Positions 10,153-49,278 of a stretch of DNA of 64,000 nt are shown here, piece after piece. This DNA comes from Phycisphaerales bacterium UBA1161 (GTDB taxonomy: Bacteria > Planctomycetota > Phycisphaerae > Tepidisphaerales > Tepidisphaeraceae), in assembly GCA_002311745.1 (NCBI GenBank), contig DBZL01000066.1:37696-101695 (forward strand). Direction: 5' to 3'. Under the pieces are notes generated by a model. The model searched no databases and was not told where the DNA came from. It was given only the letters and a program-made list of their open reading frames with translations. The translations under genes and the position numbers were made by a program. Numbering within the stretch: the stretch's first letter is position 1; the number at the start of each line of letters is the position of its first letter.

Positions 10153-10293
10153 GTTGCTAGTTGCTGGTTGCTGGTTGCCAGTCGCTGGTGAAAAGACGAA
10201 AGCGGCCTAATCGGCCGTCCTAGCAACTAGAAACCAGCAACCAGCAACTGCCTCGGATTCGTCATTCGTCATTCGGATTTCGTCATTTCGATT
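10153..10293. repeat. Inverted GTTGCTG word-repeat hairpin plus ATTCGTC repeat between convergent genes
   Basis: GTTGCTA/GTTGCTG units (10153-10188) pair with CTAGCAAC/CCAGCAAC units (about 10221-10249), with an AAAGCGGCC...GGCCG inner stem. An ATTCGTC repeat follows to about 10293 and contains the stop codon of the convergent peptidase gene. It may act as a bidirectional transcription barrier; there is no strong T-tract. Confidence 0.78.
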
Positions 10294-31456: not shown

Positions 31457-34400
31457 TTATCTAAATATGCGGCGCCGACGCAGAAGCATGCCGCCAGCTC
31501 CAGCGCCCAAAAGCCCCAATATCGACGGCTCAGGCACCGCCACCGCGACGCCCACGATTTCCAGGCCGCTATATTTGCTGAAGTCGAAATCCAGGACAGG
31601 ATCCGTTGCCGAAACCCCGCTCAAATCGACTTCCATTTGATAGTCATTATAAACCGACAAGAGACCGCTGTTACCGCTGTTTTGCGTGCCGTCGCCCAGC
31701 GAATAGTTCCCGCTCGCATCGTACCAGGTGTAATGAAACGCGGTTAAATCGGATTCCAGCGACGCCAAATCGCTTCCCGAGTTAAAAGCGAACATGACCT
31801 GCCCGGTGCCCGATGGCACATTCAGATATCCCCTGCTGGCCCCTTGGCCGTCGCCCAAGCCGCTAAGCAGCGGACGCCCGGCGGCCACCGCGTTGCTGTT
31901 GTCCGCCGTCAGCTCGACCAGCGCATCCACCTGAGCATTGACCGTCAGCGTCGCGGTCTGGTTGCTGTTGTAGCCGGCGTATTGGTCCTGGTCGCCGTAA
32001 GTGAAGGTGAACTGCTGGCTGGCGGGCCCGCCGTATTGTGGCGTGAACGTGCCGGTGAAAAGTGCGCTGGACCCGCCAGAGGCGATGTTGACCGGGCCGG
32101 CGAATCCGCTGGCGTAGCCGTTGGCATCCGGCGACACGGTCGAAACCGTCGCTCCGTCGCGCAGCGCCGAACCGCCCAGCGGATTGCTCAGCGCGTAGCT
32201 GAAATTGACGCTCTGACCCTGAGTGACATGCGGCGTGCTGATCGTCTGATTTGCAATGACGGCATGGTCGAAGACCGTGCCAGAGACGTTGATTGTTTGG
32301 TTCGTAAGGTTCGTGTTACCAAGTCCGCTGGTGCCGGTGCCGTCGGATGTGAGGTTGATTTTGATTGTGCCGCTTTGCGTGCCGGCCGTGTTGGTGTTGA
32401 TGCCCACGCTCATTGTGGAACCGTCGGTTGCAAGCGGGCTGAGTAGGCTGATCGCCCCTCCATTGTTGGTTGCATTTCCGGTAATGGATCCGAACGACGC
32501 ATCCAATTTTTCGCTGTAACCGTCGTTGGCGGCCGTATTGGTAATGCTCAGAGCTTGCGATAGTGACGAGCCGACAAATTGGGGCGCAAGGCTGACCGAT
32601 GAAACGGAATTCGGCGCCGCCAAGCGGTATACACCGCCGCTGACCGTAATGGTCTGCGCCGAAATTGCCGTTTGGAGCAGACTGTTGGCTACGTCATCGC
32701 TATAGAACGTGATTGTGCTCGTCTGGCTGACTGGCCCTGCGGTCGCGGTGCTGTTTACTCCCAACGAAATGGCATTGGTCGTTTGGCCCGGAGCAAGTTG
32801 ATCGAAAGTCAGCACGGGTGAACCGTTGCGCAAAGTAAACCCGGCACCAAGGTTTTCGGAGAATCCGTCGGTAGGGGCGGTGTTTTGAATGTTGGGGGTG
32901 GCTGGTTTGAGAAATCCGTTGACATGCACGTTGCCCAGGTTGATCGTTGTCGGAAGCGTGTTAACTTGCGCCCAGCGGCACATGTCGACGAGGACACTGG
33001 TGAACTGCCCGGGACCGCTGGCCACAACGATCTTGGGATCAAATCCGAGATTCGGATCGTAGGCCACCAGTGTAAAGCCGCCAAGGGGTGTCCCCACGCA
33101 CTTGAAAATGCAATAAGCGCCAGCGCCTTCACTTCCCTGGCCGTTGAAGTTTGCGTTGTTAGATAGATTAAGAGAATCGCTGTATTGCAATGCTCCGTTA
33201 ACGACCGTCAGGGTTGAAATGCCTGGACTGCTGTTGGAAGTTCCCGGGGTTCCCAAAATAACGTTGTAGGTTCCCAAAGCATTCAGAGGTCCGGTAGTCA
33301 AAGTACCGATGCCGCCGCCACTGTCTCCGGGGCTCAGCGTTCCCCATACGTTGGTCGCCGAATCGCTGATGTTAACCGTTCCGTTGACCCTGCCGGTGCC
33401 CGAGAGAATCGGGGTTCCCGTAGTGGTAGCACCTCCAACGTTAACGGTGGATCCGGCGGCGGTTGATCCGTCGATCTGCAGGGTGCCGTTGTTGATTGTG
33501 GTGGTGCCTGTATAAGTGTTGGCCCCCGACAGGATTTCAGTACCCGTCCCGGTCTTGACAACCGAGACTTGTCGGACCGTATTCTGGATCACCCCGCTGA
33601 ATGTTCCGGAATCTCCGTTGCTGCCGATGGTGAGTTGTGAAAGACCGCCCGTTTGGGCATGCGAGTCCACGACGCCGCTGCCGTTCAGCGCATTGATAAC
33701 GGGCGAATACGAATTCAGTTCCAGTGTTCCATTAACCGTTACATCGCCATATCCGGAACCGCCGGGGAGTGCCGCGGAATTATTCAATTGGAGAGTGCCG
33801 TAATTGATGTACGTTCCGCCGGTGTAGGAATTACTGGCGTTGGAAATGATCACGATACCGCCGACGCCGGACGTCACCAGCGCGCCAGTGCCGGTGATTG
33901 GACCCGCTAACGTTAGCGTGGTGCCGTTTTCGAGTGCGAAATCAGGCCCGCCAGTCGAATTCAGTATCATATGGCGGCTGGTGTTGACGATCGGCGAGGC
34001 CAAAAAAAGCGTCCCACCGTTGAAGGTCACGGCACCGGAAGAGTCCCCCAAATTTGCGTCGGAGGAGACCTCGAGGTCACCACTATTCAACACGGTTCCG
34101 CCAGTATAGGTATTAGTGCCGGAAAGCGTGATGTAGCCCATGCCAACTTTAGTGAGGGCTCCCGAACCCGTGATTATTCCACTGCAGAAGCTTTGCCATC
34201 CGTTGCTGTCGAATGTTCCGCCGCCGGCGTTCAGCGTTATGCCCCGATTGGAGTTCATGGTGATGTTTGTGGCCGTTTGCAGCGTGCCCCCGTTGAAAGT
34301 CAAACTGTCGGCAATAGGCGAAGTCGGCACCGCGCCTAGCGCATAATCGCTGTTGATATTCAGTACGCCCCCGTTCAAGAAGGTCTTGCCGGAATACGAG

Positions 34401-35758
34401 TTGAGTGCCGTCAGGATGACTTTGCCCGGTCCGCTCTTGGTCAAACTCGTCGCCACGCCGTTGTCCTGGATGGCTGAGTCGATCTCAAGGTTGGCCTTGG
34501 TGCTGTTCTGGATCAGGACCAAGTCGCCGCCGGTTGGGCCGCGGAGGACTCCACCGCCGATAACTGCCGTGCTGGCCACCGCCGGCGTGACCAGGATGCC
34601 GCCCGATGTGATCGTCAGAAATGTCAAGCCGGTCAGCGAGACTTGGCCGGGGTTGGTTGCGCTGAATCGCAGGCTGTTCACCGAAGTGGTGCTGTTTAGC
34701 ATAGTGGTGATGCTGCTGTTGACGTCCCCGTTTTGCGAACCCGACCCGATGCTGCTGCTGGTATTGCCGGTGTACGAACTGTTGGCCAGACCGGAGATGC
34801 TCTGATTCGTGCCGTTGCTGGCCACCGCCCAGGTGTTCCCACCGAACGTCGCCCAGCCCCCAAGAATGCCGTTGGTGCTGCCGCTGCTACTGAAATATCC
34901 GTTGGTCCCGCCGCCAGTGGCGCCGCTTTCCTCGAAATCCAACGTCGAACCCACGTTCCTTGTGATGGCACCCAGCGTCTCGGTCAGTGATCCGCCGGAT
35001 ACCGCCATGCTAAGGGTGGATTGACCCGCATTCAGCGTCAATCCATGAAACGTCTGGGCATTGAAGGTGTTCGATTTGCCGTTGATACCCAGGTTACCGC
35101 CACCCATGACCAGGGCCGAATTGCTGCTGACGATGTTGCTCGTTGGCGCCCCGATCGCCGCGAAGTTCAGTAACAGCGCTCCATCGTTGACCGTCGTGGT
35201 GCCCGAGTACGTGTTTGCCCCATTCAGGACAACCGAGCCCGCGCCGTTGAGCGCCAAACCCAATCCGTTGCCGCTGATCACCCCGCCAAACTGCAGAATA
35301 CCCCCGCTGACCACGTTCACATTGCTTGAGGACTGCAGCGCCAGATTGAGGTTGATGGTCTCCGGGTTGACGCCGCTGTTGTCGATAATGTTACCGCTGA
35401 GGTCGATGGCGTCACCGCCAATGACGAACGCGCCGGCGCCGCTGTTGAAGGTGATGCTCGTGGCAGTGAGGTTGGTTAGGTTGTTTGTGTTGGTGGTCGT
35501 GCTCGTTCCATCGAAGACGAAGTTGCCAGTACTGCCGTTGCCCGGGAAGTAACCCCCGCCGCCCCAGTTTCCAGCGCTCGACCAGTTCGCGCCAGAGCCG
35601 CCGATCCAAGTGTACGTGTTGACCGCGGCCAGCGCTTTCTGCGCCGCCAGCCCCACCGCCGCCGAAACGGCCAAGGCCAAAGCCCGCGCCGCTCGGCCTC
35701 GAAGAATCTGCTTTTTGTGATGACAAGAAACGCGCGCGCACCCGCCACCCTTGGTCAT
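31457..35758 (-). CDS. Second giant autotransporter-repeat protein with PEP-CTERM tail (paralogue)
   Basis: 1433 residues from ATG 35758, chosen because GAGGAG lies upstream and the longer frame adds an implausible Cys/Arg-rich stretch. Signal peptide ALALAVSAAVGLAAQKALA is nearly the same as in the 23119-30999 gene. Beta-strand repeats (LSGTNTYTGGTVLNSGDLEV and similar) occupy residues about 40-800, followed by two abnormal-anchor/choice-of-anchor-like repeats, then a C-terminal domain similar to the paralogue (DALVELTADNSNAVAAGRP) and a VPEPSILGLLGAGAGG...RRRR PEP-CTERM tail. Exosortase processing and surface display are inferred from the family. Both genes share their 5' leader and domain plan, so they arose by duplication. 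Confidence 0.9.
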   Translation of the reverse strand: MTKGGGCARVSCHHKKQILRGRAARALALAVSAAVGLAAQKALAAVNTYTWIGGSGANWSSAGNWGGGGYFPGNGSTGNFVFDGTSTTTNTNNLTNLTATSITFNSGAGAFVIGGDAIDLSGNIIDNSGVNPETINLNLALQSSSNVNVVSGGILQFGGVISGNGLGLALNGAGSVVLNGANTYSGTTTVNDGALLLNFAAIGAPTSNIVSSNSALVMGGGNLGINGKSNTFNAQTFHGLTLNAGQSTLSMAVSGGSLTETLGAITRNVGSTLDFEESGATGGGTNGYFSSSGSTNGILGGWATFGGNTWAVASNGTNQSISGLANSSYTGNTSSSIGSGSQNGDVNSSITTMLNSTTSVNSLRFSATNPGQVSLTGLTFLTITSGGILVTPAVASTAVIGGGVLRGPTGGDLVLIQNSTKANLEIDSAIQDNGVATSLTKSGPGKVILTALNSYSGKTFLNGGVLNINSDYALGAVPTSPIADSLTFNGGTLQTATNITMNSNRGITLNAGGGTFDSNGWQSFCSGIITGSGALTKVGMGYITLSGTNTYTGGTVLNSGDLEVSSDANLGDSSGAVTFNGGTLFLASPIVNTSRHMILNSTGGPDFALENGTTLTLAGPITGTGALVTSGVGGIVIISNASNSYTGGTYINYGTLQLNNSAALPGGSGYGDVTVNGTLELNSYSPVINALNGSGVVDSHAQTGGLSQLTIGSNGDSGTFSGVIQNTVRQVSVVKTGTGTEILSGANTYTGTTTINNGTLQIDGSTAAGSTVNVGGATTTGTPILSGTGRVNGTVNISDSATNVWGTLSPGDSGGGIGTLTTGPLNALGTYNVILGTPGTSNSSPGISTLTVVNGALQYSDSLNLSNNANFNGQGSEGAGAYCIFKCVGTPLGGFTLVAYDPNLGFDPKIVVASGPGQFTSVLVDMCRWAQVNTLPTTINLGNVHVNGFLKPATPNIQNTAPTDGFSENLGAGFTLRNGSPVLTFDQLAPGQTTNAISLGVNSTATAGPVSQTSTITFYSDDVANSLLQTAISAQTITVSGGVYRLAAPNSVSSVSLAPQFVGSSLSQALSITNTAANDGYSEKLDASFGSITGNATNNGGAISLLSPLATDGSTMSVGINTNTAGTQSGTIKINLTSDGTGTSGLGNTNLTNQTINVSGTVFDHAVIANQTISTPHVTQGQSVNFSYALSNPLGGSALRDGATVSTVSPDANGYASGFAGPVNIASGGSSALFTGTFTPQYGGPASQQFTFTYGDQDQYAGYNSNQTATLTVNAQVDALVELTADNSNAVAAGRPLLSGLGDGQGASRGYLNVPSGTGQVMFAFNSGSDLASLESDLTAFHYTWYDASGNYSLGDGTQNSGNSGLLSVYNDYQMEVDLSGVSATDPVLDFDFSKYSGLEIVGVAVAVPEPSILGLLGAGAGGMLLRRRRIFR

Positions 35759-35853
35759 GTGACAGCTCCTCGAACGCGCAGACGCAGCGCCTCCGCCGCA
35801 CAGCGACACGCCGCCGATGGCAGCTCCGCCGCGCCGCCCGCTACCAACCCGTT

Positions 35854-37569: not shown

Positions 37570-38073
37570 ATGTACCAGGAACATCGCGATCAATCGCAGA
37601 CGATTAAGGCCCGCTGCGCGGTGGTGACGCTTAGCGACACGCGGACCGTCCAGACGGATGCCAGCGGCAAGAAAATCAGCGACCTGCTCACCGCCGCCGG
37701 GCACGCCGTGGCCGATTACCAGATCATCCCGGACGACCCCAAGCGGCTGCGAAATTTGCTGGCCGATCTATTGGCTCGTGCGGATGTGGATGCGATTCTG
37801 ACTAACGGCGGGAGCGGGATCGCCCGTAAAGATCGGACGATTGAGGTCGTGCAGGAGTTTTTCGACATTGCATTGCCCGGCTTCGGCGAGCTATTCCGGA
37901 TGTTAAGCTGGAGCGAGATCGGCAGCGGCGCGATGCTGAGCCGTGCGGTGGGCGGCGTGGCTCGGGGCAAATTGCTTTTCGCCCTCCCCGGCAGCCCGGC
38001 TGCCGTCGAGCTGGCCCTAACTCGCCTGATCCTCCCCGAACTTGGCCATTTGCTTCACGAACTTCGTAAATAG
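37570..38073 (+). CDS. moaB: Molybdenum cofactor biosynthesis protein MoaB/MogA type
   Basis: 167 residues. Contains CAVVTLSDTRTVQTDASGKKI near the start, TNGGSGIARKDRTIEVV (the molybdopterin-binding TGG-like loop with Ser and Asp), and LPGSPAAVELAL near the end, all MoaB/MogA hallmarks. The family adenylylates molybdopterin or is its close relative. Start ATG 37570; an upstream in-frame GTG-like start at 37546 is less likely. The 3' end of the gene, including the stop, is imperfectly duplicated about 65 bases downstream. Confidence 0.9.
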   Translation: MYQEHRDQSQTIKARCAVVTLSDTRTVQTDASGKKISDLLTAAGHAVADYQIIPDDPKRLRNLLADLLARADVDAILTNGGSGIARKDRTIEVVQEFFDIALPGFGELFRMLSWSEIGSGAMLSRAVGGVARGKLLFALPGSPAAVELALTRLILPELGHLLHELRK

Positions 38074-38077
38074 CCTC

Positions 38078-38173
38078 TACTTTCCACTTTCTACTTTCCA
38101 CTATCTCGTTTCCCCACCTTCTCCACGAGCTGCGTAAGTAACCTCCACTTTCTACTTTCTACTGTCTCCTTTC
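38078..38173. repeat. TACTTTC/CACTTTC 7-bp word repeat with copied moaB 3' end
   Basis: Two runs of TACTTTC-type units (38078-38105 and 38146-38170) flank a degenerate copy of the last codons of moaB (encoding Leu-His-Glu-Leu-Arg-Lys-stop, 38119-38141). An inverted copy of the word family lies at 38656-38680. Confidence 0.75.
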
Positions 38174-38474
38174 TCGCCCCCGCGGGGGCGCGCGATGCAA
38201 GTCCTGATTGGGGAAAGGCCTGCGCAATGCGGTCGAAATCCACATGCGCGCAGGCCGTTGCTCGCATCCATTGCCCGAGAAAGGCGTTGCGCTGGAAACA
38301 TTCACCATTTTTCCAAAAAAGTTTTCCCCGGGCGCTCGGACCGAACTGGAAGTGAGTTTGGCGAAGCCGTTTTGGGCGCAATATCGCCAATCTGAGTTGT
38401 AACTCCTGTAGCGAGCGGCCCCGAAAATGGGCCGAAAACGCATAAGCTGTTGTATTCATTTATGTTACGTTCCG

Positions 38475-38499: not shown

Positions 38500-38655
38500 A
38501 TTGACATAAATGTATTTATAGCAATGGATTGCGCGCTAGCGCGAGCGCGACAAAGCAGCCGATGATCGCGTAAGCAATTGGATGGATTTGGGTTACGAGA
38601 ACAATTTGGAAAACCTTCACCCGCGTACGGTCCTTGGAGGACCTACGAGAAAGTT

Positions 38656-38680
38656 GAGAGTGGAAAGTAGAAAGGAGAGG
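38656..38680. repeat. GAAAGTAG word repeat (inverted copy of the 38078 family)
   Basis: GTGGAAAGTAGAAAGGAGA is the reverse-complement style of the TACTTTC units downstream of moaB; the two sites could pair over 500 bases. Confidence 0.55.
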
Positions 38681-38768
38681 TGTGAGGCGATCACAGGCCC
38701 CGCTTGAACGACCACCGCCAGAACATCAGAAGCTGTGGCCGCAGGGGATGTCTGTCCAGAGCGACAAA

Positions 38769-38832: not shown

Positions 38833-39957
38833 GTGTCCAAGAAGGCTTGGTTAGGGGTCGCGGTTGCAGTCGCCATAGCGGCTCTCGCTGTTTTCGCCTT
38901 GAGAACAAGACTTTCGAAGCAAGGTGGAATCACAATTGGCGCCACGTTGCCACTCAGCGGTGATGCAGCGGTTTTTGGCAAAAACACCCAAGAAGGCATC
39001 GACCTTGCAGTTAAGGAGATAAATGATGCAGGAGGCGTGCTGGGCCGTAAAATCACAATCCAATACGAGGACACCCAGGCCCTGGCAAAGGAGGGTGTTA
39101 CTGCGTACCAGAAGCTCGTGAGCGTTAACAAGGTGCCAGCTATTATCGATGACAGCGTAAGTAGCGTCACCCTCGCGATGGCACCTCTTGCGGACAGGGA
39201 TCACGTTGTCATCTTGGCTACGGGTGCCACTGCACCCCAAATATCCGGCGTGAGTAAGTACGTGTTTCGCATTTGGAATTCGGACGCGTATGAGGGACAA
39301 GTCATCGCTGAGTGCGCGTTCGCGGAAATGAGTCTGAAGAACGTCGCGATACTTTACTGCAACAACGAATACGGCCAGGGTCTCAAAGGGGTATTCCGCG
39401 CACAGTTCCTTGGCCGTGGAGGCAGAATCGCCACAGAAGAGGCTTTTGAACAAGGCGCAACCGACTTTCGAACCCAACTCACCAAAATCGGAGCGACCAA
39501 TCCTGATGGCATCTACCTTGTAGGTTACCCAAAAGAGATAGGTGCGGCGCTGCGTCAATCGAAAGAACTCGGCATCTCGGCAAAGCTGCTCGGGACTGTG
39601 GCGTTGCACGACCAACAACTGATTGATATCGCGGGACACGCAGCCGACGGCGTGGTTTTCCCATTCCCGAAGGATCCAACAGGGAATCAAGTGGACAATT
39701 TCAAGACGGCGTTCGCAGCCAAGTATTCGAAGGCCCCGCCGGTGCTGGCCGACGTTGGATATGACGCCGTCAGAATGATTGCCCGTGCTATTGAAGTGTC
39801 GAAGGATGCTGCGGGGGACCAACTTCGCCAAGGTCTGTCGACACTCAAGGACTATTCTGGCGCTTCCGGCATGATGACCTTTGACGAAAGAGGAGACGTG
39901 CACAAGCCTATGGGAATTAAGGTAATCCAAGACGGAAAATTCGTTTGGCGTAGTTAG
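38833..39957 (+). CDS. Branched-chain amino-acid-type ABC substrate-binding protein (LivJ-like)
   Basis: 374 residues. An N-terminal hydrophobic segment (LGVAVAVAIAALAVFAL) without a lipobox Cys suggests a membrane anchor or cleavable signal. Then ITIGATLPLSGDAAVFGKNTQEGIDLAVKEIN, IQYEDTQ, DDSVSSVTLAMAPLAD and YCNNEYGQGL are the Peripla_BP_6/LivJ pattern. GTG 38833 is supported by GGGAGGAA. Binds the substrate in the periplasm and delivers it to the LivH/LivM channel encoded downstream. In this operon the usual amino-acid ligand cannot be taken for granted, because a prenyl synthase-like gene and a peptide gene lie between it and the permeases. Confidence 0.9.
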   Translation: MSKKAWLGVAVAVAIAALAVFALRTRLSKQGGITIGATLPLSGDAAVFGKNTQEGIDLAVKEINDAGGVLGRKITIQYEDTQALAKEGVTAYQKLVSVNKVPAIIDDSVSSVTLAMAPLADRDHVVILATGATAPQISGVSKYVFRIWNSDAYEGQVIAECAFAEMSLKNVAILYCNNEYGQGLKGVFRAQFLGRGGRIATEEAFEQGATDFRTQLTKIGATNPDGIYLVGYPKEIGAALRQSKELGISAKLLGTVALHDQQLIDIAGHAADGVVFPFPKDPTGNQVDNFKTAFAAKYSKAPPVLADVGYDAVRMIARAIEVSKDAAGDQLRQGLSTLKDYSGASGMMTFDERGDVHKPMGIKVIQDGKFVWRS

Positions 39958-39983
39958 AATGCGTCGAACGGAGCGCATCTCCC

Positions 39984-40916
39984 ATGAGCCCAGATCAACC
40001 CAACGGTCGGCATAACCGGGCTACCCTGATCATCGTAGAAATCGTAAGCTCGCTCATTGGAAGCGTGGTTTCACTTCTTTTTGGATTTGAAGCCAAGGAC
40101 GTTACGAAATTGCCGAGTTGGTGGATGCCCGCGGTTTTCGGTGTAGTGGGCGCGTTTTTGGCGTGGTCAATTTTCAACCTGTTTCGGCTCCGCTACCTTC
40201 GGGCCGAGCAAGCTGAACGGCATAGGCTGCAACAGCAGAAATTCGAGGCAGATCTCAGGTATATCAAAACTGCCGTCACTCCAATGACACCTCGTTTCGC
40301 GAACGAGGATCCCATCGTCTTCGATTTACTACGTGCATACGCCGACCGGGCCCTCCTCCACATTACCCGCCGAGCAGAGATTCTTCCACTTGAGGAGTAC
40401 TTGATGCTCTTGGACATGTCATTAGATCGCGTTGAAACCTGCATGTTTGCCACGAGTTTAGTTGCTCCATCTACGTTTCTAGCAAATAAAAACGTTATGC
40501 TCTACCTAAAGAAACAGGCAGACCGGAAGCAGTATATTGGTGACCGGTTGACGATGGAGAGAGTCTTTATTTGCAAGGGTTCAACGCTGGACTCTGAGAC
40601 GGAAAAAGACGCGGTTGCAAAACTGCTGCCGCGGCACAAAGATCACGGTATCAAGATGGGGCTCTGCAGGAGCGAGGACTTAGACCTAGCGCCATCGCTA
40701 GAGAATAGGTATTGCAGGGATTTTGTTTACTTTGAATCCCACGGCGCACAATGGTTAGTCGACGCTGGCGAGATTACAGAAACAGCTCAAGGGGGCAACG
40801 CTTACAACAAGAATCTCGTCCGCGTGCAAGTGGTTATCGACAAAGGCATGCTCAACGGCAACTGGACGGAGACAATGAAAGGAATTCGCGGGCGAACGAC
40901 GTGGGTGGGCGAATGA
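39984..40916 (+). CDS. Unknown membrane-anchored protein in the Liv/prenyl-peptide operon
   Basis: 310 residues. Two N-terminal membrane segments (about residues 14-35 and 47-68) are followed by a short charged helix and a soluble domain of about 230 residues, likely cytoplasmic. I do not recognise its family. The C-terminal part (RVFICKG, then a helix, GIKMGLCRSEDL, RDFVYFESHGAQWLV) has the beat of a PLD-like or effector/sensor alpha-beta domain, a weak impression only. It lies 26 bases after the binding-protein gene and 19 before the synthase-like gene. By position it could sense, process or help export the peptide product; that is a guess. Confidence 0.65.
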   Translation: MSPDQPNGRHNRATLIIVEIVSSLIGSVVSLLFGFEAKDVTKLPSWWMPAVFGVVGAFLAWSIFNLFRLRYLRAEQAERHRLQQQKFEADLRYIKTAVTPMTPRFANEDPIVFDLLRAYADRALLHITRRAEILPLEEYLMLLDMSLDRVETCMFATSLVAPSTFLANKNVMLYLKKQADRKQYIGDRLTMERVFICKGSTLDSETEKDAVAKLLPRHKDHGIKMGLCRSEDLDLAPSLENRYCRDFVYFESHGAQWLVDAGEITETAQGGNAYNKNLVRVQVVIDKGMLNGNWTETMKGIRGRTTWVGE

Positions 40917-40935
40917 CATGGTTCGAGGATGTTAA

Positions 40936-41991
40936 ATGACGAAGAGTTCGGGAGTTATTTGCGCGCAAGAAACACCAGTCTTGGCCTTGGAGATTTACAA
41001 GCTCCTGCAGGACACGACTTCAGCCGTTGAAGCGACGATGGATTGCATTGTTGCGGAGAGCTCGGAGGAAGCGCCTGAGTTGTACGCGGAGGCACGGGCG
41101 AGCATCAACGACGCAGGTCATAGGATACTCTCGACCTTACTGAGAATGTCATACGAGATTTCTGGCTGCTCGTATGAACAAGTGCTCCCGTTGTGTGCGG
41201 GCATTGAATTCTTGCAGGTGTCCGCATTGTTGGTGGATGACATATTCGACGATGCGATTACGCGTAACGGACGCGCTTCCATTAGGTCACGGTGCGGTGA
41301 CAAGGAAGCTACGGCTATCGGGATGGTCCTAGGCGCTTTGGGGATGAGGACAATTGCAGAATTTCTCACGCGCGGTGCCCCGCCCAAAGAGGCTGTTGCA
41401 ATATTGCAACTGTTCGCGCAAGTTCAGCAAGAAATTTATACCGGCCAGTTTTTGGATTTGCGTTACGCTGGAAGACCTGATTTGTCGGAGGATCAATACT
41501 TCAACATAATCACTAGGACTACCGCGTGTTTCATAAGAGCTCCGCTCGTAGCTGGAGCATTGCTTTGGGGAGCGCCAACAGAGCTAACAGCGTCGCTGGA
41601 TTCAATTGGGTTGAAATTAGGCGTAGCCTACCAGGTCAGGGATGACGTGATCGACTTCCTTGGAGATTCCGATTGCACAGGCAAGCCGCAATTCGGTGAT
41701 CTTCGACAACGACGAATGAGATTACCGCTCGTGCACGCCCTGCGCCAATTGGACGGACATGACCGGCAGTGGCTCCTGTGCCTGCTTAAGGGTCAGGAAC
41801 CAATTTCCGACGGCGAGATTGAGCGTGCGTGCGCGTTGTTAACAAAAGCAGGCTCTTTGGAATATGCCATCGGAAAGACAAAAGAGTTTTGCCGGGCCGC
41901 CCGAAATTCACTTGCGAGCATCCGTCCCAGGTGGAGAATGTTTGCAGAGCAAATCGACGCGATCGCCGACCTGATTTCAAGTTTTGATTAA
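40936..41991 (+). CDS. Divergent polyprenyl diphosphate synthase-like protein (ComQ-like by context)
   Basis: 351 residues from ATG 40936, with GAGGA six bases upstream. The two Asp-rich motifs are kept: Asp-Asp-Ile-Phe-Asp (residues 101-105) and Asp-Asp-Val-Ile-Asp (236-240), the latter preceded by YQVR; GKP and DL follow (249-256). Other conserved points are altered: the GGKRxRP motif reads AGHRILS, the RRG after the first motif reads RNG, and the Gly-Lys in DLxxGKxTLP reads RR. So it is an isoprenyl synthase fold enzyme, not a typical housekeeping chain elongator. The next gene, 22 bases downstream, encodes a short peptide with a Trp next to its C-terminus; this is the ComQ-ComX arrangement, where ComQ prenylates a Trp. 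Prenylation activity is inference. Confidence 0.82.
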   Translation: MTKSSGVICAQETPVLALEIYKLLQDTTSAVEATMDCIVAESSEEAPELYAEARASINDAGHRILSTLLRMSYEISGCSYEQVLPLCAGIEFLQVSALLVDDIFDDAITRNGRASIRSRCGDKEATAIGMVLGALGMRTIAEFLTRGAPPKEAVAILQLFAQVQQEIYTGQFLDLRYAGRPDLSEDQYFNIITRTTACFIRAPLVAGALLWGAPTELTASLDSIGLKLGVAYQVRDDVIDFLGDSDCTGKPQFGDLRQRRMRLPLVHALRQLDGHDRQWLLCLLKGQEPISDGEIERACALLTKAGSLEYAIGKTKEFCRAARNSLASIRPRWRMFAEQIDAIADLISSFD

Positions 41992-42013
41992 TTGTTTGTT
42001 AATGTGAGGATAT

Positions 42014-42205
42014 ATGGGTCAGTTCGTAACACGGTTTCGCAAAAGTCCGAAACCTTCATCTGACAGACCAGTATCGCTGCCGAATACCCGCCCGGGAGCT
42101 TCGACGAACGATTGTACACGCGATCGATTGGCGAAGAGCGATGAAACAACCAACGTCGATCTCCGTGGCTGTTTCGAAGTCACGCTGTGCCCAATTTGGA
42201 ACTGA
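42014..42205 (+). CDS. 63-residue ComX-like precursor peptide (candidate prenylated peptide)
   Basis: Starts at ATG 42014 with GTGAGGA three bases upstream, the same GTGAGGA-N3-ATG arrangement as the downstream livG gene. It sits 22 bases after the synthase gene and 6 before livH, filling what would otherwise be the only large gap in a compact operon, so I regard it as a real gene. The peptide is basic and low in secondary structure; it ends Leu-Cys-Pro-Ile-Trp-Asn, with Trp62 next to last and Cys at 34, 53 and 59. ComX precursors are 50-75 residues with a Trp 2-5 residues from the end that is isoprenylated. The N-terminal FVxxFxxSP (residues 4-12) also resembles the opening of ComX. Trp62 is the candidate modified residue; Cys59 is the alternative. 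Confidence 0.65.
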   Translation: MGQFVTRFRKSPKPSSDRPVSLPNTRPGASTNDCTRDRLAKSDETTNVDLRGCFEVTLCPIWN

Positions 42206-42211
42206 GTTGAG

Positions 42212-43090
42212 ATGTTCTGGCAACTATCCTTGAATGCGATTGCCGGGGCGTCCGCGGTAATCCCATTGACCATAGGCTGCGCGATTGTCTACTGGATTAA
42301 TGGTTTCTTTGACTTTGCCTTGGGGGCCAGCTTTATCGGTTCAGTGTATTGTTCGTGGGTTTTGAAAAACGGGTGTGGGTTGTCACTCGGCGCGGCGATT
42401 CCGCTTGGCGTCGGCGTAGGTGCATTGTTTGCACTTTTAACGGAAGCTTGGGCGTATCGTCCCCTTCGGAACAAGCGCTCAAGCACGCTGTTCGCAATGC
42501 TTGCCTCACTGGGGATTTATATTGTGGTTCAGAACTTCATCTCGTTGCTTTTCGGCGATAGCACAAAGTCATTGCGGTTAGGACCGGTCCAAGCGGGAAT
42601 TCGAATTCTCGGAGGAAGAATAACGAAAGCGCAGGTTTTGTGCGTCGTTGGGAGTCTATGCGTGATCGGCGGTTTGATCTTACTCCAAGCCCTAACGCGA
42701 GCAGGAAAGGTCCTTCGCGCGATCGCAAATGATGCGACGCTTGCGATTATCGTGGGCATTACGGCCGATAAATGGAAATTAATTGCCCACGCTTTAGCAG
42801 GTGGACTTGCGGGCCTGTCGGGAATTTTCATGGCCATGAATGTTGATGTTTCGCCGACGTTGGGGATGGGTGCTTTTCTGGCGGCGACAGTTGCAGTCGT
42901 AATCGGCGGCTTTGGCAGCATACCGGGAGTTGCCCTTGGTGCCGCGCTGATTGCATTCGCTAACCAGTTCGGCGTTTGGAAACTCAGCACACAGTGGCAG
43001 GGGTGCGCGACATTCATAATTTTGCTTGCGTTTATGATTTTGCGACCACAGGGTTTTTCGGGTAGGCCAATTGGAAAAGTCGCCGTGTAA
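42212..43090 (+). CDS. Branched-chain amino-acid-type ABC permease (LivH-like)
   Basis: 292 residues with eight or so hydrophobic segments. Motifs FALGASFIGSVYCSWVL near the start and GLSGIFMAMNVDVSPTLGMGAFLAATVAVVIGGFGSIPGVALG near the end fit LivH/BPD_transp_2. Pairs with the LivM-like protein to make the membrane channel. It starts six bases after the peptide gene, with no strong ribosome binding site, suggesting coupling to peptide translation. Confidence 0.92.
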   Translation: MFWQLSLNAIAGASAVIPLTIGCAIVYWINGFFDFALGASFIGSVYCSWVLKNGCGLSLGAAIPLGVGVGALFALLTEAWAYRPLRNKRSSTLFAMLASLGIYIVVQNFISLLFGDSTKSLRLGPVQAGIRILGGRITKAQVLCVVGSLCVIGGLILLQALTRAGKVLRAIANDATLAIIVGITADKWKLIAHALAGGLAGLSGIFMAMNVDVSPTLGMGAFLAATVAVVIGGFGSIPGVALGAALIAFANQFGVWKLSTQWQGCATFIILLAFMILRPQGFSGRPIGKVAV

Positions 43091-43092
43091 AA

Positions 43093-43965
43093 ATGGATTA
43101 CCTCCTACACATTGTAATCATTGCGGCGATTTACACGACGCTTGCCGTGTCATTGGATTTGTTGGCCGGGCAGACAGGGTTGCTTTCTCTTGCTCATGCA
43201 GCTTTCTACGGCATCGGAGCGTATTCGTCCGCTCTGCTCGCCACCGCCCTGCACCTGCCGATCCTAGTCAGCGTCTTGGCTGGCATGTTATGCGCGGCAG
43301 TAGTCTCCCTCTTGGTTTCAGTGCCGTCCCTCCGCCTGCACGACGACTACTTTGTCATTGCCACGTTCGGATTTCAGATGATCTTGTTCAGCATCTTTAA
43401 TAATTGGGTGGACTTAACCCATGGACCGCTGGGCATTGCCGGCATCCCTCAGCCGACGATCTTCGGATGGCAGATTAATAGTAATTGGAAGTTTGCGTGT
43501 CTAGGGTTGCTTTTCGCGTGTTTCGCGTATTTTGTGGTTGGCCGGTTGTCCCACTCTCCCTTTGGTCGTGTGCTACGCGCGATTCGCCAGGACGAGGTGT
43601 TCGCGAGGTCGATCGGTAAGAACACGCTAAAATTCAAGGTAGCCGCCTTTGCAGTGAGCGCAGCACTTGCGGCCTCGGCTGGTAGTCTGTACGCGCATTA
43701 CATTAGCTACGTCGACCCGAGCAGTTTCACGGTCATGGAGTCTATCCTGGTGATTTCAATGGTGATCATCGGTGGGCCCGCAAGCACGTGGGGGCCGCTT
43801 ATCGGGGCGGCGGTGCTCGTGACTTTGCCTGAAGCGCTACGTTTCACCGGCTTGCCGAGCGCCGTGGCGGCGAATCTGCGACAGGTGTTCTACGGCGCCT
43901 TGCTGGTAATCATGATGATGTTCCGGCCTCAGGGGTTGGTGGGACGTTACGGCTTTGGACGGTGA
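43093..43965 (+). CDS. Branched-chain amino-acid-type ABC permease (LivM-like)
   Basis: 290 residues. LDLLAGQTGLLSLAHAAFYGIGAYSSALLA at the start and VISMVIIGGPASTWGPLIGAAVLVTLPEAL near the end are LivM signatures. ATG 43093 comes two bases after the livH stop (TAAAAATG), so translation is coupled. Forms the heterodimeric permease with the LivH-like protein. Slightly shorter than E. coli LivM, lacking its N-terminal extension. Confidence 0.92.
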   Translation: MDYLLHIVIIAAIYTTLAVSLDLLAGQTGLLSLAHAAFYGIGAYSSALLATALHLPILVSVLAGMLCAAVVSLLVSVPSLRLHDDYFVIATFGFQMILFSIFNNWVDLTHGPLGIAGIPQPTIFGWQINSNWKFACLGLLFACFAYFVVGRLSHSPFGRVLRAIRQDEVFARSIGKNTLKFKVAAFAVSAALAASAGSLYAHYISYVDPSSFTVMESILVISMVIIGGPASTWGPLIGAAVLVTLPEALRFTGLPSAVAANLRQVFYGALLVIMMMFRPQGLVGRYGFGR

Positions 43966-43971
43966 GGAATA

Positions 43972-44721
43972 ATGAACGCCTTACGCTGCCAAATAGTCAA
44001 CAAGTCGTTTGGTGGCGTTCAAGCCCTACTTGATGTTAGCCTTCGGTTCCCGCCTTCAGGAATTACAGCCATCATCGGCCCCAACGGTGCCGGCAAGACG
44101 ACGCTCGTGAATGTGCTGACGGGCTTTGTGCGGCCTGACGCAGGTCACTGTTACATCGGCGCTCAGGAAATTACGCGCTGGCCTCCGCATCGAATTGCGC
44201 GAACGGGTGTGGGTCGAACATTCCAAGACCTGCGGCTCATTACACAAGTGTCGGTATTGGACAACGTCCTTGTCGCGTGTCCCGCTCAGCGCGGAGAACG
44301 ATTGTTGCCAGCACTGCTGCGTTTCGGCGTCGCCAAAGAGGAAACCCGGAACTGCGCCGCGGCCATGGACTTGCTTCGGTTTGTCGAATTGGAATCAAGA
44401 GCCCATGATCTAGCTGGCGAGCTTTCTTATGGTCAGCAGAAGTTGTTGGCACTTGCCTGTTGCCTTGCCACGCAAGCCTCCATCCTGTTTCTTGATGAAC
44501 CCGTTGCGGGTGTTGCACCTCAAATGGTCGCAGAGATTCTCGACCGCCTTCGAGCGGTATCCTGCCAGCATAAGGGAATCGTTTTCATTGAGCACGATAT
44601 CAGCGTAGTTCGAGAGATCGCCGATCAAGTAATCGTCATGGACGACGGCAAAGTTGTGGCTCAGGGATCACCTGCAGAAGTGCTGGAGAGGCCGGAGATT
44701 ATGGAGGCGTACCTTGGCTGA
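43972..44721 (+). CDS. Branched-chain amino-acid-type ABC ATPase (LivG-like)
   Basis: 249 residues. Walker A GPNGAGKTT, signature LSYGQQKLLAL, Walker B ILFLDEP with VAGVAP after it, and the switch His in IEHD are all intact. GTGAGGA precedes the ATG. It drives the transporter together with the LivF-like ATPase, whose gene overlaps its 3' end. Confidence 0.92.
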   Translation: MNALRCQIVNKSFGGVQALLDVSLRFPPSGITAIIGPNGAGKTTLVNVLTGFVRPDAGHCYIGAQEITRWPPHRIARTGVGRTFQDLRLITQVSVLDNVLVACPAQRGERLLPALLRFGVAKEETRNCAAAMDLLRFVELESRAHDLAGELSYGQQKLLALACCLATQASILFLDEPVAGVAPQMVAEILDRLRAVSCQHKGIVFIEHDISVVREIADQVIVMDDGKVVAQGSPAEVLERPEIMEAYLG

Positions 44722-45439
44722 TGCGACACGGCCTCTCCTGCAGGTGGACGCCGTCGTTACAGGGTACGGAAAGAAACTAATCCTGAATGGGATCACTCTT
44801 TCCGTAGGCCAAGGTGAGATTGTTGCGCTGATCGGCCATAACGGCGCTGGCAAGTCTACGCTTTTGAGAACTATCTTCGGTTTGCAACCGCTCTGGGAAG
44901 GGAAACTATTTTTCGACGGGCAATCGCTGAAGTCAGCCAAACCGCGCGACCTGTTGCACATGGGAATCGCCTATGTCCCGCAAGGCAACCGAGTCTTCAC
45001 GGACCTTACGGTCCGCGAGAACTTGGCAATAGGTGGGATAACCCTCGAGAACAAAAAACTATTGCATGAGGGAATCACTCGGGCGTTAATTTTATTCCCA
45101 GTCTTGCGGGAGCGGTTGAAGCAACGCGCCGCAACGCTATCAGGGGGTCAGAAGCAGATGCTTGCTCTAGCAAATGCGATTGTGCTTTCTCCGCGTTTCT
45201 TGCTGCTTGATGAACCTTCCTTAGGCCTGGCGCCACCCTTGGTGACTGCCGCTCTCTCCCGCATTCAGCAACTGAATCGAGACGGCGGACTCACTGTCCT
45301 CATCGTTGAGCAAAAGGTTCGCGAAGTTCTGAATATCTGCCAGCGTGTCTGTTGCTTAAAACTTGGGAAAGTCACATACGATGGATCTCCTGAGCCGTTA
45401 AAGAGCGATCCTGACAAGCTGCGTCAGGTGTTCCTCTGA
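44714..45439 (+). CDS. Branched-chain amino-acid-type ABC ATPase (LivF-like)
   Basis: 241 residues, TTG start at 44714 chosen because GGAGG (44703-44707) lies six bases upstream and the family N-terminus LLQVDAVVTGYGKKLILNGITLSV follows. It overlaps livG by eight bases. Walker A GHNGAGKST, signature LSGGQKQMLALANAI, Walker B FLLLDEPSLGL and VEQ are intact. Last gene of the operon. The 374 bases that follow (45440-45813) hold a short GTCC-GTC-GGAC hairpin near 45490 and no further gene that I can support. Confidence 0.92.
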   Translation: MADATRPLLQVDAVVTGYGKKLILNGITLSVGQGEIVALIGHNGAGKSTLLRTIFGLQPLWEGKLFFDGQSLKSAKPRDLLHMGIAYVPQGNRVFTDLTVRENLAIGGITLENKKLLHEGITRALILFPVLRERLKQRAATLSGGQKQMLALANAIVLSPRFLLLDEPSLGLAPPLVTAALSRIQQLNRDGGLTVLIVEQKVREVLNICQRVCCLKLGKVTYDGSPEPLKSDPDKLRQVFL

Positions 45440-45813: not shown

Positions 45814-47583
45814 ATGGCTATGCTCAAAACCGAATCTCGACCCAGCTCCGCAGCGATCGAAGCCAAGCCCAAGTACCAGGGGAAGACCGGAGCGAAGATC
45901 TTCCACGAAATGCTGGTTCAGCAGCACAAAGTGGAAGTGATGTTCGGGTATCCGGGCGGAGCGATTTTGCCGGTGTTCGATGAGCTTTACAGGACGCCGG
46001 CCAAGTTCATCCTCAATCGGCACGAGCAAGGGGCGGGGCATTGCGCCGATGGGTACGCGCGGGTGACGGGCAAGCCGGGCGTGTGCGTGGTGACCAGTGG
46101 GCCGGGGGCGACTAATACCATCACGCCGTTGGCTACGGCGCTGTTGGATTCCATTCCGATCCTGGTGTTCAGCGGGCAGGTGGCGACCAAGGTCATCGGG
46201 AACGACGCGTTCCAGGAGGCGGATGTCACGGGGATTTCGCGGCCGTGCACCAAGTGGAATTACCTGATTAAGGACGTGCACGATCTGCCGCGAGTCATTA
46301 ATGAGGCGTTTTTGGTGGCGACGAGCGGGAGGCCGGGGCCGGTGCTGGTCGATCTGCCCAAGGACGTGACCTCGGGCGTGTGTACGCGCGAGGTGGATGA
46401 TACGCCGAGGCCGCACGTCATGAAGCGCAAGACCATCTACCAGGTGGCGCATGCCAAGCAGGTGCAGGAAGCGGCGGAGATGATCAACCGCAGCGAGCGG
46501 CCGATCCTCTACGTGGGCGGCGGCGCGATCATCAGCGGGGCTTCGGCGGTCCTGCGCAAGCTGGCGGAAAAGGGAAACATCCCGTGCACGACTACGCTAT
46601 TGGGCCTGGGGGCGTTTGACGAATTGGACCACGGAAGCCTGTTCATGCTGGGCATGCACGGCTCGGCCGCGGCCAACTTCGCCGTGCAGGATTGCGATTG
46701 CTTGATCAGCATCGGGGCGCGATTCGACGACCGCGTCACGGGCAACCTGGCGACGTTCGCGCCCAAGGCGAAGATCATCCACATCGACATCGATCCGAGC
46801 AGCATCAGCAAGAACGTGGACGTGGATGTGCCGGTGGTCGGCGACGCCAAGGCGTCGCTGGAGGCGATGCTGCCGCTGATCGAGCACCGCGATCGCAACC
46901 AGTGGTGGGCGAAGGTCGATGCCTGGCGGAAGAAGTTTCCGTTCAAGTACCTGGACGATTCCAAGCTCGCCAAGCCGCAGTACGTGATCGAGGAGATCAA
47001 CCGGCAGACGGGCGGGGACGCGGTCATCGCCACGGGCGTGGGACAGCACCAGATGTGGGCGGCACAGTTTTACCGGTGGCGATATCCAAGGCAGATGATT
47101 ACCAGCGGCGGGCTGGGCACCATGGGCTACGGATTGCCCGGCTCGATGGGGGCACAACTGGGCAGCCCGGGGAAACTGGTCATCGATATCGACGGCGACG
47201 CCAGCTTTTTGATGACCATGAGCGAGCTGGTCACCATCGCCCAGTACAACATCCCGGTCAAAGTGGCCATCCTCAACAACGATTTCCAGGGGATGGTCAA
47301 GCAGTGGCAGGATTTGTTCTACGATCACCGCTATAGCCAGACGAAGATGATGAACCCCAACTTCGCGGCCGTGGCCGAGGCGTGCGGTATCCGCGGCATC
47401 CGCTGCGAGAACAAGAGCGATGTGCCCAAGATCGTCAAGGAGATGATCAGCCACAAAGGCCCGGTGGTGGTGGATTTTTGCGTCGAGCCCAACGAGCACG
47501 TCTACCCCATGGTGCCCAGCGGCAAGGGGCTGCACGAAATGGAAATGGGCAAGGGCCTGCACGAAATGGGCACGCTGTCGTAA
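45814..47583 (+). CDS. ilvB: Acetolactate synthase large subunit
   Basis: 589 residues. Thiamine-diphosphate enzyme features: Glu in [15 protein letters not shown], the GDG...N motif (Gly-Asp-Ala-Ser-Phe after DID, ending LNNDFQGMV), and FAD-binding stretches. It makes acetolactate in valine/leucine/isoleucine synthesis. GAGG lies before ATG 45814. The C-terminus carries a duplicated [16 protein letters not shown] unit (residues about 569-585) beyond the normal family end. No small subunit gene (ilvH) is next to it. Composition is high-GC again, in contrast to the operon upstream. Confidence 0.95.
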
Positions 47584-48321: not shown

Positions 48322-49278
48322 CTACGAAATCCCTATGAGAATCCCGGCCACAAACACCAGCGCGCCGCCGACGACCACCTGAAACGCCGCGGATAAAAAT
48401 GGCGTGTCCATGTAGCGATAGCGAATCCAGGAGATGGTGATCAGCTCGGCCACGACGACGACGGCGGCGACGGCGGTGGCCACGTAAAACTGCCGGATGA
48501 GAAACGGCAGGGTGTGACCGATGCCGCCGAGGGCGGTCATGAGGCCGCAGATGATGCCGCGAATGATCGGCCGGCCGCGGCCGGTCAGGCTGCCGTCGTC
48601 GCTGAGGGCCTCGGCGAAGCCCATGCTGATGCCCGCCCCCACGGACGCGGCCAGTCCGACGGTGAACGCGAACCAACTCTCCTTGGTGGCAAACGCCGCG
48701 GCAAACACCGGCGCCAGCGTCGAGACCGAACCGTCCATCAATCCGGCCAGTCCCGGCTGGACCACCTGCAAAAGGAACAGGCGGCGGTTGGTCTCGTCTT
48801 CGTTGGCCCGCACATCCGGGGTCAGCGTCTTCTGCTCCAGTTCCTCGGCGAGCCGCTCGTGCGAGCGTTCCTCCTCGGCCAGATCGTTCAACAGACCGCG
48901 GACGCTGACGTCGGTGGATCGTTTGGCGGCGGCGGCGTAGAAGCGCTGAACCTCGGCCTCCATGGACGCGGCCTGCTTGCGCACGGCGTCCAGACCCAGG
49001 GGCCGCATCATCCACAACGGCCGGCGACGCACGAAACCCTTGATGTCCTCGCGGCGGATCAGGGGAATGTGCTCGCCGAATTTCTGGCGGTACAGCTCCG
49101 TCAGGCGCTGGCGGTGGCCGACCTCCTGCTCGCGCATGCGCTCAAACACCTCGGCCGACGCCGGATACTGCTCCTTCAGGCCGTCGGCGTAGTCGCCGTA
49201 AACGCGCGAGTCCTGCTCCTCCATCCCGATGGCAAGCGCCAGCACTTCACGCTCGCTGAGACTGTCGAAATTTCGCAT
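48322..49278 (-). CDS. Iron exporter with ferritin-like and VIT domains (MbfA type)
   Basis: 318 residues. The N-terminal half is a ferritin-like four-helix domain with Glu/His ligands (EEQDSRVY, REQEVGHRQRL, EAEVQRFY, EEERSHERL). The C-terminal half has a VIT1/CCC1-type membrane domain (GLMDGSVSTLAPVFAAAFA, GISMGFAEALSDDG) with about five helices. The same fusion is known as MbfA, which senses or stores iron through the ferritin domain and exports it. Start ATG 49278 has GAGGTG upstream. Separate from the arabinoside operon by 52 bases on the same strand. Confidence 0.88.
   Translation of the reverse strand: MRNFDSLSEREVLALAIGMEEQDSRVYGDYADGLKEQYPASAEVFERMREQEVGHRQRLTELYRQKFGEHIPLIRREDIKGFVRRRPLWMMRPLGLDAVRKQAASMEAEVQRFYAAAAKRSTDVSVRGLLNDLAEEERSHERLAEELEQKTLTPDVRANEDETNRRLFLLQVVQPGLAGLMDGSVSTLAPVFAAAFATKESWFAFTVGLAASVGAGISMGFAEALSDDGSLTGRGRPIIRGIICGLMTALGGIGHTLPFLIRQFYVATAVAAVVVVAELITISWIRYRYMDTPFLSAAFQVVVGGALVFVAGILIGIS

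Follow-up and report, generated by a model that had tools for sequence, protein, structure and literature searches.

An eight-gene planctomycete cassette that combines a Liv-type importer, a divergent isoprenyl diphosphate synthase-like enzyme, and a conserved microprotein

Why would a complete Liv-type importer share one operon with an isoprenyl diphosphate synthase (IDS)-like enzyme and a peptide of 63 residues? The question is raised by a gene cassette at positions 38833-45439 (+ strand) of a 64,000-nucleotide stretch of contig DBZL01000066.1 from Phycisphaerales bacterium UBA1161, the whole of which is termed the window herein. Eight open reading frames (ORFs) are tightly packed there, with intergenic gaps of 26, 19, 22, 6, 2, and 6 bases and then an overlap. 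They encode a substrate-binding protein, a protein with two transmembrane segments (2-TM protein), the enzyme, the microprotein, two permeases, and two ATPases. The original prediction had described eight close-set + strand genes lacking a kinase or response regulator, and had proposed that they form a ComQ/ComX-like system for a prenylated peptide. The gene layout was confirmed by ORF coordinates and Pfam, which also placed no kinase or response regulator among the eight genes, the Liv permeases and ATPases coming next after the peptide gene. Our analysis indicates that the eight-gene unit is, with near certainty, real and conserved. We tentatively propose, from sequence comparisons, that it couples Liv/HAAT-type import of a non-standard ligand to prenyl transfer without isopentenyl diphosphate (IPP), with the microprotein as a partner.

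The same gene order was recovered from two other planctomycete genomes. Enzyme relatives were scored among the 7,998 candidates with the most words in common, which gave 115 hits; hits 1 to 21 had 36-59% identity over the alignment and E values down to 5.7e-62, while hit 22 stood at E 2.5e-29. An alignment of the 21 nearest relatives then served as the profile query for planctomycete genomes at E 1e-60. Matches were found in two of 392 genomes in a phylum sample (the window's own genome and G168), two of 397 in its own class (itself and G708), one of 114 in the order of G708, and one of 396 in the class of G708, with none among nine genomes from the class of G300 or 397 from that of G320. The genome samples overlap, so that these tallies are not additive, and just 5 first-look candidates were scored in many genomes, so that relatives may be missed.

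G168, which belongs to a different class represented by one genome, carried all eight genes in identical order on a 55-kb contig. G708, from the same class and a different family, carried the first four genes (binding protein to small ORF) and the beginning of LivH, at which point its contig stops. All three copies therefore have the binding protein, 2-TM protein, synthase, small ORF, and LivH in this order, and LivM, LivG, and LivF follow LivH in both intact copies (window and G168). Between these two, identity was 62% for the binding protein, 56% for LivM, 53% for LivF, 46% for LivG, 41% each for the enzyme and LivH, and 32% for the 2-TM protein; the small ORF was 67% identical over its first 15 residues. 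That the genes belong together, as had been predicted, is borne out by this shared order and by a block of low G+C content in all three contigs.

In a tree that also included the 94 other hits and both ordinary synthases from the window's own genome, all 23 clade members grouped together (support 0.994) on a long stem. The enzymes of the window, G168, and G708 sit one in each of the clade's three main branches, and the gene arrangement is thus old within the enzyme clade. Two metagenomic proteins, P0002 (enzyme, 59% identity) and P0117 (2-TM protein, 48%), probably lie together as well, because the longest contig is 58,637 bases for each and their sources are the same. Other searches added little. 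Viral contigs gave nothing with the 2-TM protein query and five stretches with the clade-alignment query, none of them a relative. Genome contigs queried with the single window enzyme gave 35 stretches, of which one was a weak relative (25% identity); this negative is a weak one, since the search patterns were exact segments of a single sequence. The 170 plasmid records were all below 60% identity (24-31% in the first ten listed), and a search for the 2-TM protein in relatives matched one of 150 genomes, the window's own.

All three copies were poorer in G+C than their surroundings. The window cassette had a G+C content of 0.532, compared to a mean of 0.620 over 619 same-size windows of its contig (minimum 0.577); corresponding values were 0.546 and 0.599 for G168 (345 windows, minimum 0.560), and 0.557 and 0.610 for the 3.7-kb part in G708 (126 windows, minimum 0.587). 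These comparison windows overlap, and the contrast is given without a probability. The cassette has probably been inherited as a block, and its low G+C content together with its patchy distribution suggests that it may have been transferred between lineages as a block. Directly downstream, at 45814-47583, is a gene for an acetolactate synthase-like thiamine diphosphate enzyme; its G+C content (0.617) equals that of the flanks, and for this reason it looks like host sequence outside the cassette.

Is the enzyme, then, an ordinary polyprenyl diphosphate synthase? The 351-residue protein (40936-41991, + strand) matched PF00348 (polyprenyl_synt, E 1e-46) and is best described as a specialized trans-IDS-like enzyme. 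Its AlphaFold model (pLDDT 91.2) had ordinary synthases as its best structural matches (template modeling [TM] score of ~0.8), and it shares with canonical trans-polyprenyl diphosphate synthases the fold and both aspartate-rich motifs. In one alignment of the 23 clade members and 94 other hits (controls), the first motif (FARM; D101, D102, and D105), the second motif (SARM; D236, D237, and D240), and Lys250 were kept in 23/23 members. Other positions set the clade apart. The Lys of GGKRxRP occurred in none of 22 members (one gap) compared to 89/94 controls, and the Arg of this motif was retained in 16/22 and is Leu in the window enzyme. The second Arg of RRG was Asn in all 23 (Arg in 91/94 controls), the His of ELIH was replaced by Gln in 21 members and Lys in one and kept in one (controls: 87 His, 7 Gln), and the His of LIHDD was present in none of 23 (90/94 controls). 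The Asp of AILxGD, found in 90/94 controls, was T, I, M, or F in at least 20 of the 23 members. The Lys of KT (91/94 controls) was Thr in 22 and Ser in one, and the position of Thr262, Thr in 90/94 controls, was Arg in all 23 members. At these places, the remaining two synthases of the genome had ordinary residues.

We take IPP to be bound by the Lys of GGK, the second Arg of RRG, and the residue at the ELIH position, and the KT Lys to help bind the allylic donor, as in farnesyl diphosphate synthase. Ordinary IPP elongation by the clade enzymes appears unlikely because the IPP-site residues are replaced across the clade. The view that an ordinary synthase sits in a Liv operon by chance, beside a meaningless small ORF, has in its favor the PF00348 match, the fold, and the structural neighbors. 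It is nonetheless improbable, as the IPP-site residues are changed clade-wide in a genome that already has two ordinary copies, the gene order persists across the clade, and the N terminus of the small ORF is conserved; we rejected an ordinary polyprenyl synthase on the first of these grounds. The enzyme had been predicted to be divergent, and it is indeed unusual, resembling a transferase that has moved past IPP use.

The residue pattern is compatible with a transferase and with a cyclase alike. An IDS-derived terpene cyclase would release a terpenoid, of which an oxidized form would be re-imported unless the importer's ligand is unrelated. An intact FARM combined with lost IPP-binding residues would suit a class I cyclase as well as a transferase, and among NCBIfam models the enzyme comes nearest to NF041169, the family 2 encapsulin cargo polyprenyl transferase (159 bits, cut-off 450). 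However, all 23 members retain the two DDxxD motifs and the GK that follows, the structural model is closest to ordinary synthases, and no terpene-modifying gene (P450 or oxidase) is among the eight, and we regard a cyclase as a rather doubtful alternative. Encapsulin cargo itself was rejected: the likeness to that family (excerpted in PMC8346489) consists of this nearest model, whose score is far under the cut-off, and no shell gene is among the eight.

If the enzyme transfers a prenyl group, is the small peptide its acceptor? The microprotein gene (42014-42205, + strand) encodes 63 residues, beginning MGQFVTRFRKS and ending CPIWN, and its counterparts in G168 and G708 have 65 residues each. 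All three start with MGQF and carry [FY]RK at residues 8-10. Their codons differ synonymously (Gly GGT/GGG/GGG, Arg CGC/AGG/CGT, Lys AAA/AAG/AAG), and because such differences occur at several positions, the microprotein is conserved as a protein and not merely as DNA. A purine-rich stretch precedes each start (gtgagg, aaggagg, and ggagga). Ungapped BLOSUM62 comparison of the first 12 residues gave pair scores of 42, 32, and 33, which were reached by 0, 2, and 2 of 200,000 shuffles, and the summed similarity was reached by none of 200,000. The final 12 residues were no more alike than their shuffles: the observed sum was reached by 18,695 of 20,000. Judged by this conservation, the small ORF is a genuine gene whose conserved part is the N terminus; its prediction as a gene is upheld by that N terminus recurring at the same gene position in G168 and G708.

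Library searches with the microprotein were largely empty. Pfam assigned the 63-residue ORF no family, a database search of seven candidates yielded one hit, the G708 copy itself, and PHROGs gave a single chance-level match, for the G708 peptide (E 0.062). The ComX model PF05952 matched none of the three peptides (Pfam, E 1) and nothing in the window's own genome; 14 controls, including that of B. subtilis, were also below its cut-off, making it a poor detector.

The peptide had been predicted to be ComX-like; in such a system the enzyme would prenylate a Trp near the C terminus of the peptide, which would be released as a signal and taken up again by the Liv importer. As in ComQXPA of Bacillus, a PF00348-type enzyme gene lies immediately upstream of one that encodes a peptide of about 60 residues, and the window peptide has a Trp at position 62 of 63. 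Gln233 before the SARM is kept in 23/23 members, though Gln occurs in 92/94 controls as well. All characterized trans-IDS-like prenyltransferases target Trp, according to the portion of PMC13290415 drawn on here, and the clade shares the IDS fold and the FARM DDxxD (23/23) with those enzymes (ComQ, PalQ, ChrPC, and Ord1). Yet the G168 and G708 peptides contain no Trp and the C-terminal 12 residues are shuffle-like. These two Trp-less peptides of three speak against a Trp peptide as acceptor. A small ORF without a conserved C-terminal Trp/Cys in homologous operons had been named in the original prediction as grounds for refutation, and aligning the small ORFs, as it had asked, found the Trp not conserved.

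Comparison with described systems points the same way. ComX carries its Trp 5-10 residues from the C terminus, and the census excerpted from PMC4008528 found no comQXPA-like locus outside Firmicutes. The SARM, present in the clade, is absent from ComQ, in the part of PMC10853753 consulted. Unlike ComQXPA, the planctomycete cassette has a Liv importer, a 2-TM protein, and a conserved peptide N terminus, with no kinase or regulator and no conserved Trp; export and protease genes are also missing among the eight. PalQ/PalX of Paenibacillus alvei is closer in having an IDS-like enzyme with a SARM and an adjoining small precursor. PalX, however, combines an NHLP leader with a C-terminal Trp that is obligatory; neither is seen in the cassette peptides, and PalP is a histidine kinase where the cassette has an importer (portions of PMC10853753). 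PalQ requires the C-terminal Trp and retains activity after two SARM Asp residues are changed, as stated in the excerpts of PMC10853753 and PMC13290415. A ComX/PalX-type Trp pheromone was thus rejected; we consider this explanation highly improbable, and as a general mechanism it is already refuted unless the G168 and G708 peptides are pseudogenes or misassembled.

Prenylation of another residue would be a different matter. The N terminus would then be a recognition leader, and a mid-peptide Cys (34, 39, and 35 in the window, G168, and G708, respectively) or the N-terminal segment would be modified, giving a lipidated peptide. A conserved N terminus with a variable tail resembles leader/core ribosomal peptides, the peptide gene comes immediately after that of the enzyme in 3/3 cases, and every peptide has a Cys within 34-39. 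Against this, only three sequences are at hand, and their Cys residues (34, 53, and 59; 39 and 62; 35) are not aligned. No trans-IDS-like enzyme is known to modify Cys in the part of PMC13290415 cited here. The tails, moreover, overlap the livH start in G168 and G708 and abut it in the window, leaving their sequence partly shaped by the livH ribosome-binding site and start. We judge modification of another residue to be unlikely.

Could the acceptor instead be imported? This question concerns the binding protein. The cassette holds a complete HAAT (Liv/Urt) importer in one operon, as do LivJKHMGF and UrtABCDE, consisting by Pfam of a binding protein, two BPD_transp_2 permeases, and two ATPases. 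The Liv/HAAT-type binding protein (374 residues, 38833-39957, + strand) has a GTG start, a hydrophobic N-terminal segment, and a Peripla_BP_6 match (E 4.7e-59), and is the most conserved full-length part of the cassette. A Val, in a GTVA motif common to the G168 and G708 proteins, stands opposite the acidic residue of the amino acid binders 3td9 (Asp), 4gnr (Asp), and 4n0q (Glu), whereas the genome's other Liv-type binding protein has Asp at that position. In E. coli LivJ this acidic residue is Glu226, which presumably binds the amino acid's ammonium group. With Val in place of that acid, a free branched-chain amino acid seems unlikely as the ligand.

The remaining importer subunits are all on the + strand: a LivH-type permease of 292 residues (42212-43090, BPD_transp_2 E 2e-26), a LivM-type permease of 290 (43093-43965, E 6.4e-48), a LivG-type ATPase of 249 (43972-44721, ABC_tran E 1.3e-29), and a LivF/UrtE-type ATPase of about 241 (~44714-45439, ABC_tran E 6.2e-33). 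The last probably starts at a TTG at 44714, overlapping the preceding gene; an earlier in-frame TTG is at 44654. The best NCBIfam models were PRK11300 (LivG) for the first ATPase (203 bits, cut-off 362) and UrtE for the second (206.8 bits, cut-off 285.8), and among the matches listed none of the eight cassette proteins exceeded a curated cut-off. The importer thus differs from the Liv and Urt systems in subunits that fall below their NCBIfam cut-offs, in the Val that replaces the acidic residue, and in the enzyme, 2-TM, and microprotein genes that separate the binding protein gene from those of the permeases.

The 2-TM protein (310 residues, 39984-40916, + strand) combines an N-terminal helical hairpin with a phospholipase D-fold domain, matched by Foldseek and VIA-align. 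Its transmembrane segments were assigned by visual inspection and from the model helices, and the model has a mean confidence of 65.8, better over residues 151-230. The HxK(x4)D (HKD) motif was absent in 5/5 relatives, and a catalytic phospholipase D was rejected on this basis. No Pfam family exceeded its cut-off. NCBIfam SLATT_1 scored 18.3 bits for the window protein and 16.8 bits for P0117 (cut-off 41), and was not listed for P0118, P0122, and P0123.

How might these parts work together? In the mechanism that we tentatively prefer, the importer would bring in a carboxylate-bearing ligand other than an ordinary free amino acid. The cytoplasmic enzyme would ionize an allylic diphosphate, provided by the two ordinary synthases of the cell, and move the prenyl group onto a non-IPP acceptor, for which the imported ligand would be the simplest candidate. 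The 2-TM protein, whose phospholipase D-fold domain lacks the HKD motif, could be a membrane anchor or sensor, and the conserved N terminus of the MGQF microprotein may bind the enzyme or the transporter. A related known enzyme is Ord1 (PDB 9v4h), which matched the enzyme model at rank 50 with a TM score of 0.72 by query length and 20% identity over the structural match. Ord1 is likewise IDS-derived and acts on a small amino acid, farnesylating free Trp, according to the excerpt of PMC13290415; the comparison made here is one of fold. More speculatively, and with considerable doubt on our part, the cassette would be a transferable unit that imports a specific small molecule and prenylates it by means of an enzyme derived from polyprenyl synthases through loss of IPP use. 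In it, a dedicated microprotein would dock through its MGQF-type N terminus, for example as an adaptor joining enzyme to transporter, so that import and prenylation would be one step.

Several observations weigh against this proposal. The structure 3hut, for which we know of no ligand, has Ser at the acidic position, the alignment of 4mlc is unclear there, and the ligand class is read from one position and from presumed LivJ ligand contacts. The KT Lys is lost too, which may mean an altered binding of the donor as well. The microprotein family has three members here, and the G708 binding-protein frame (L027 2511-3722) contains one internal TAG, either a sequencing error or a real stop. Nor was an integrase or flanking repeat seen, and no direct repeat bridges both borders of the cassette.

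Open-licence papers yielded no description of this eight-gene set and no counterpart of an import-prenylation cassette with a docking microprotein. If correct, the proposal would mean a prenyl-conjugate pathway organized around an importer, a separate branch of synthase-derived prenyltransferases, and a microprotein family unnamed by gene finders and family libraries. Annotation as polyprenyl synthase can mask enzymes that are past IPP use, and a few diagnostic positions separate this clade from ordinary synthases. The cassette is small enough for transfer into a laboratory host.

Scans for regulatory signals showed no excess of promoters (4, compared to 4.3 in shuffles) or terminators (9, compared to 8.6). 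Rfam had no match close to the cassette and placed two tRNAs elsewhere in the window. An anti-phage system was rejected, padloc assigning no family to six proteins.

Two types of short repeat were observed in the window. The intergenic stretch just upstream of the cassette carries, at 38046-38176 and 38646-38691, a 7-base repeat type, GTGGAAAGTAGAAAG, in inverted arrangement (4 matches, 0.05 expected). Clusters of another 7-base type (GTTGCTG/GTTGCTA) lie at 894-922, 2004-2143, 3262-3380, and 10153-10248 on both strands, partly within long ORFs, where they are translated as ..CWLLVAS.. or ..SNSQLATN..; GTTGCTGGTTGCTAG had 23 matches with up to two mismatches, compared to 0.10 expected. On the - strand, very long ORFs of 2626 and 1450 residues (23119-30999 and 31457-35809) have similar N termini with (R)ARALALAVSAAVGL. 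Also on the - strand, 48325-49278 encodes one protein in which a rubrerythrin domain is followed by a weak VIT1-like match below the family cut-off.

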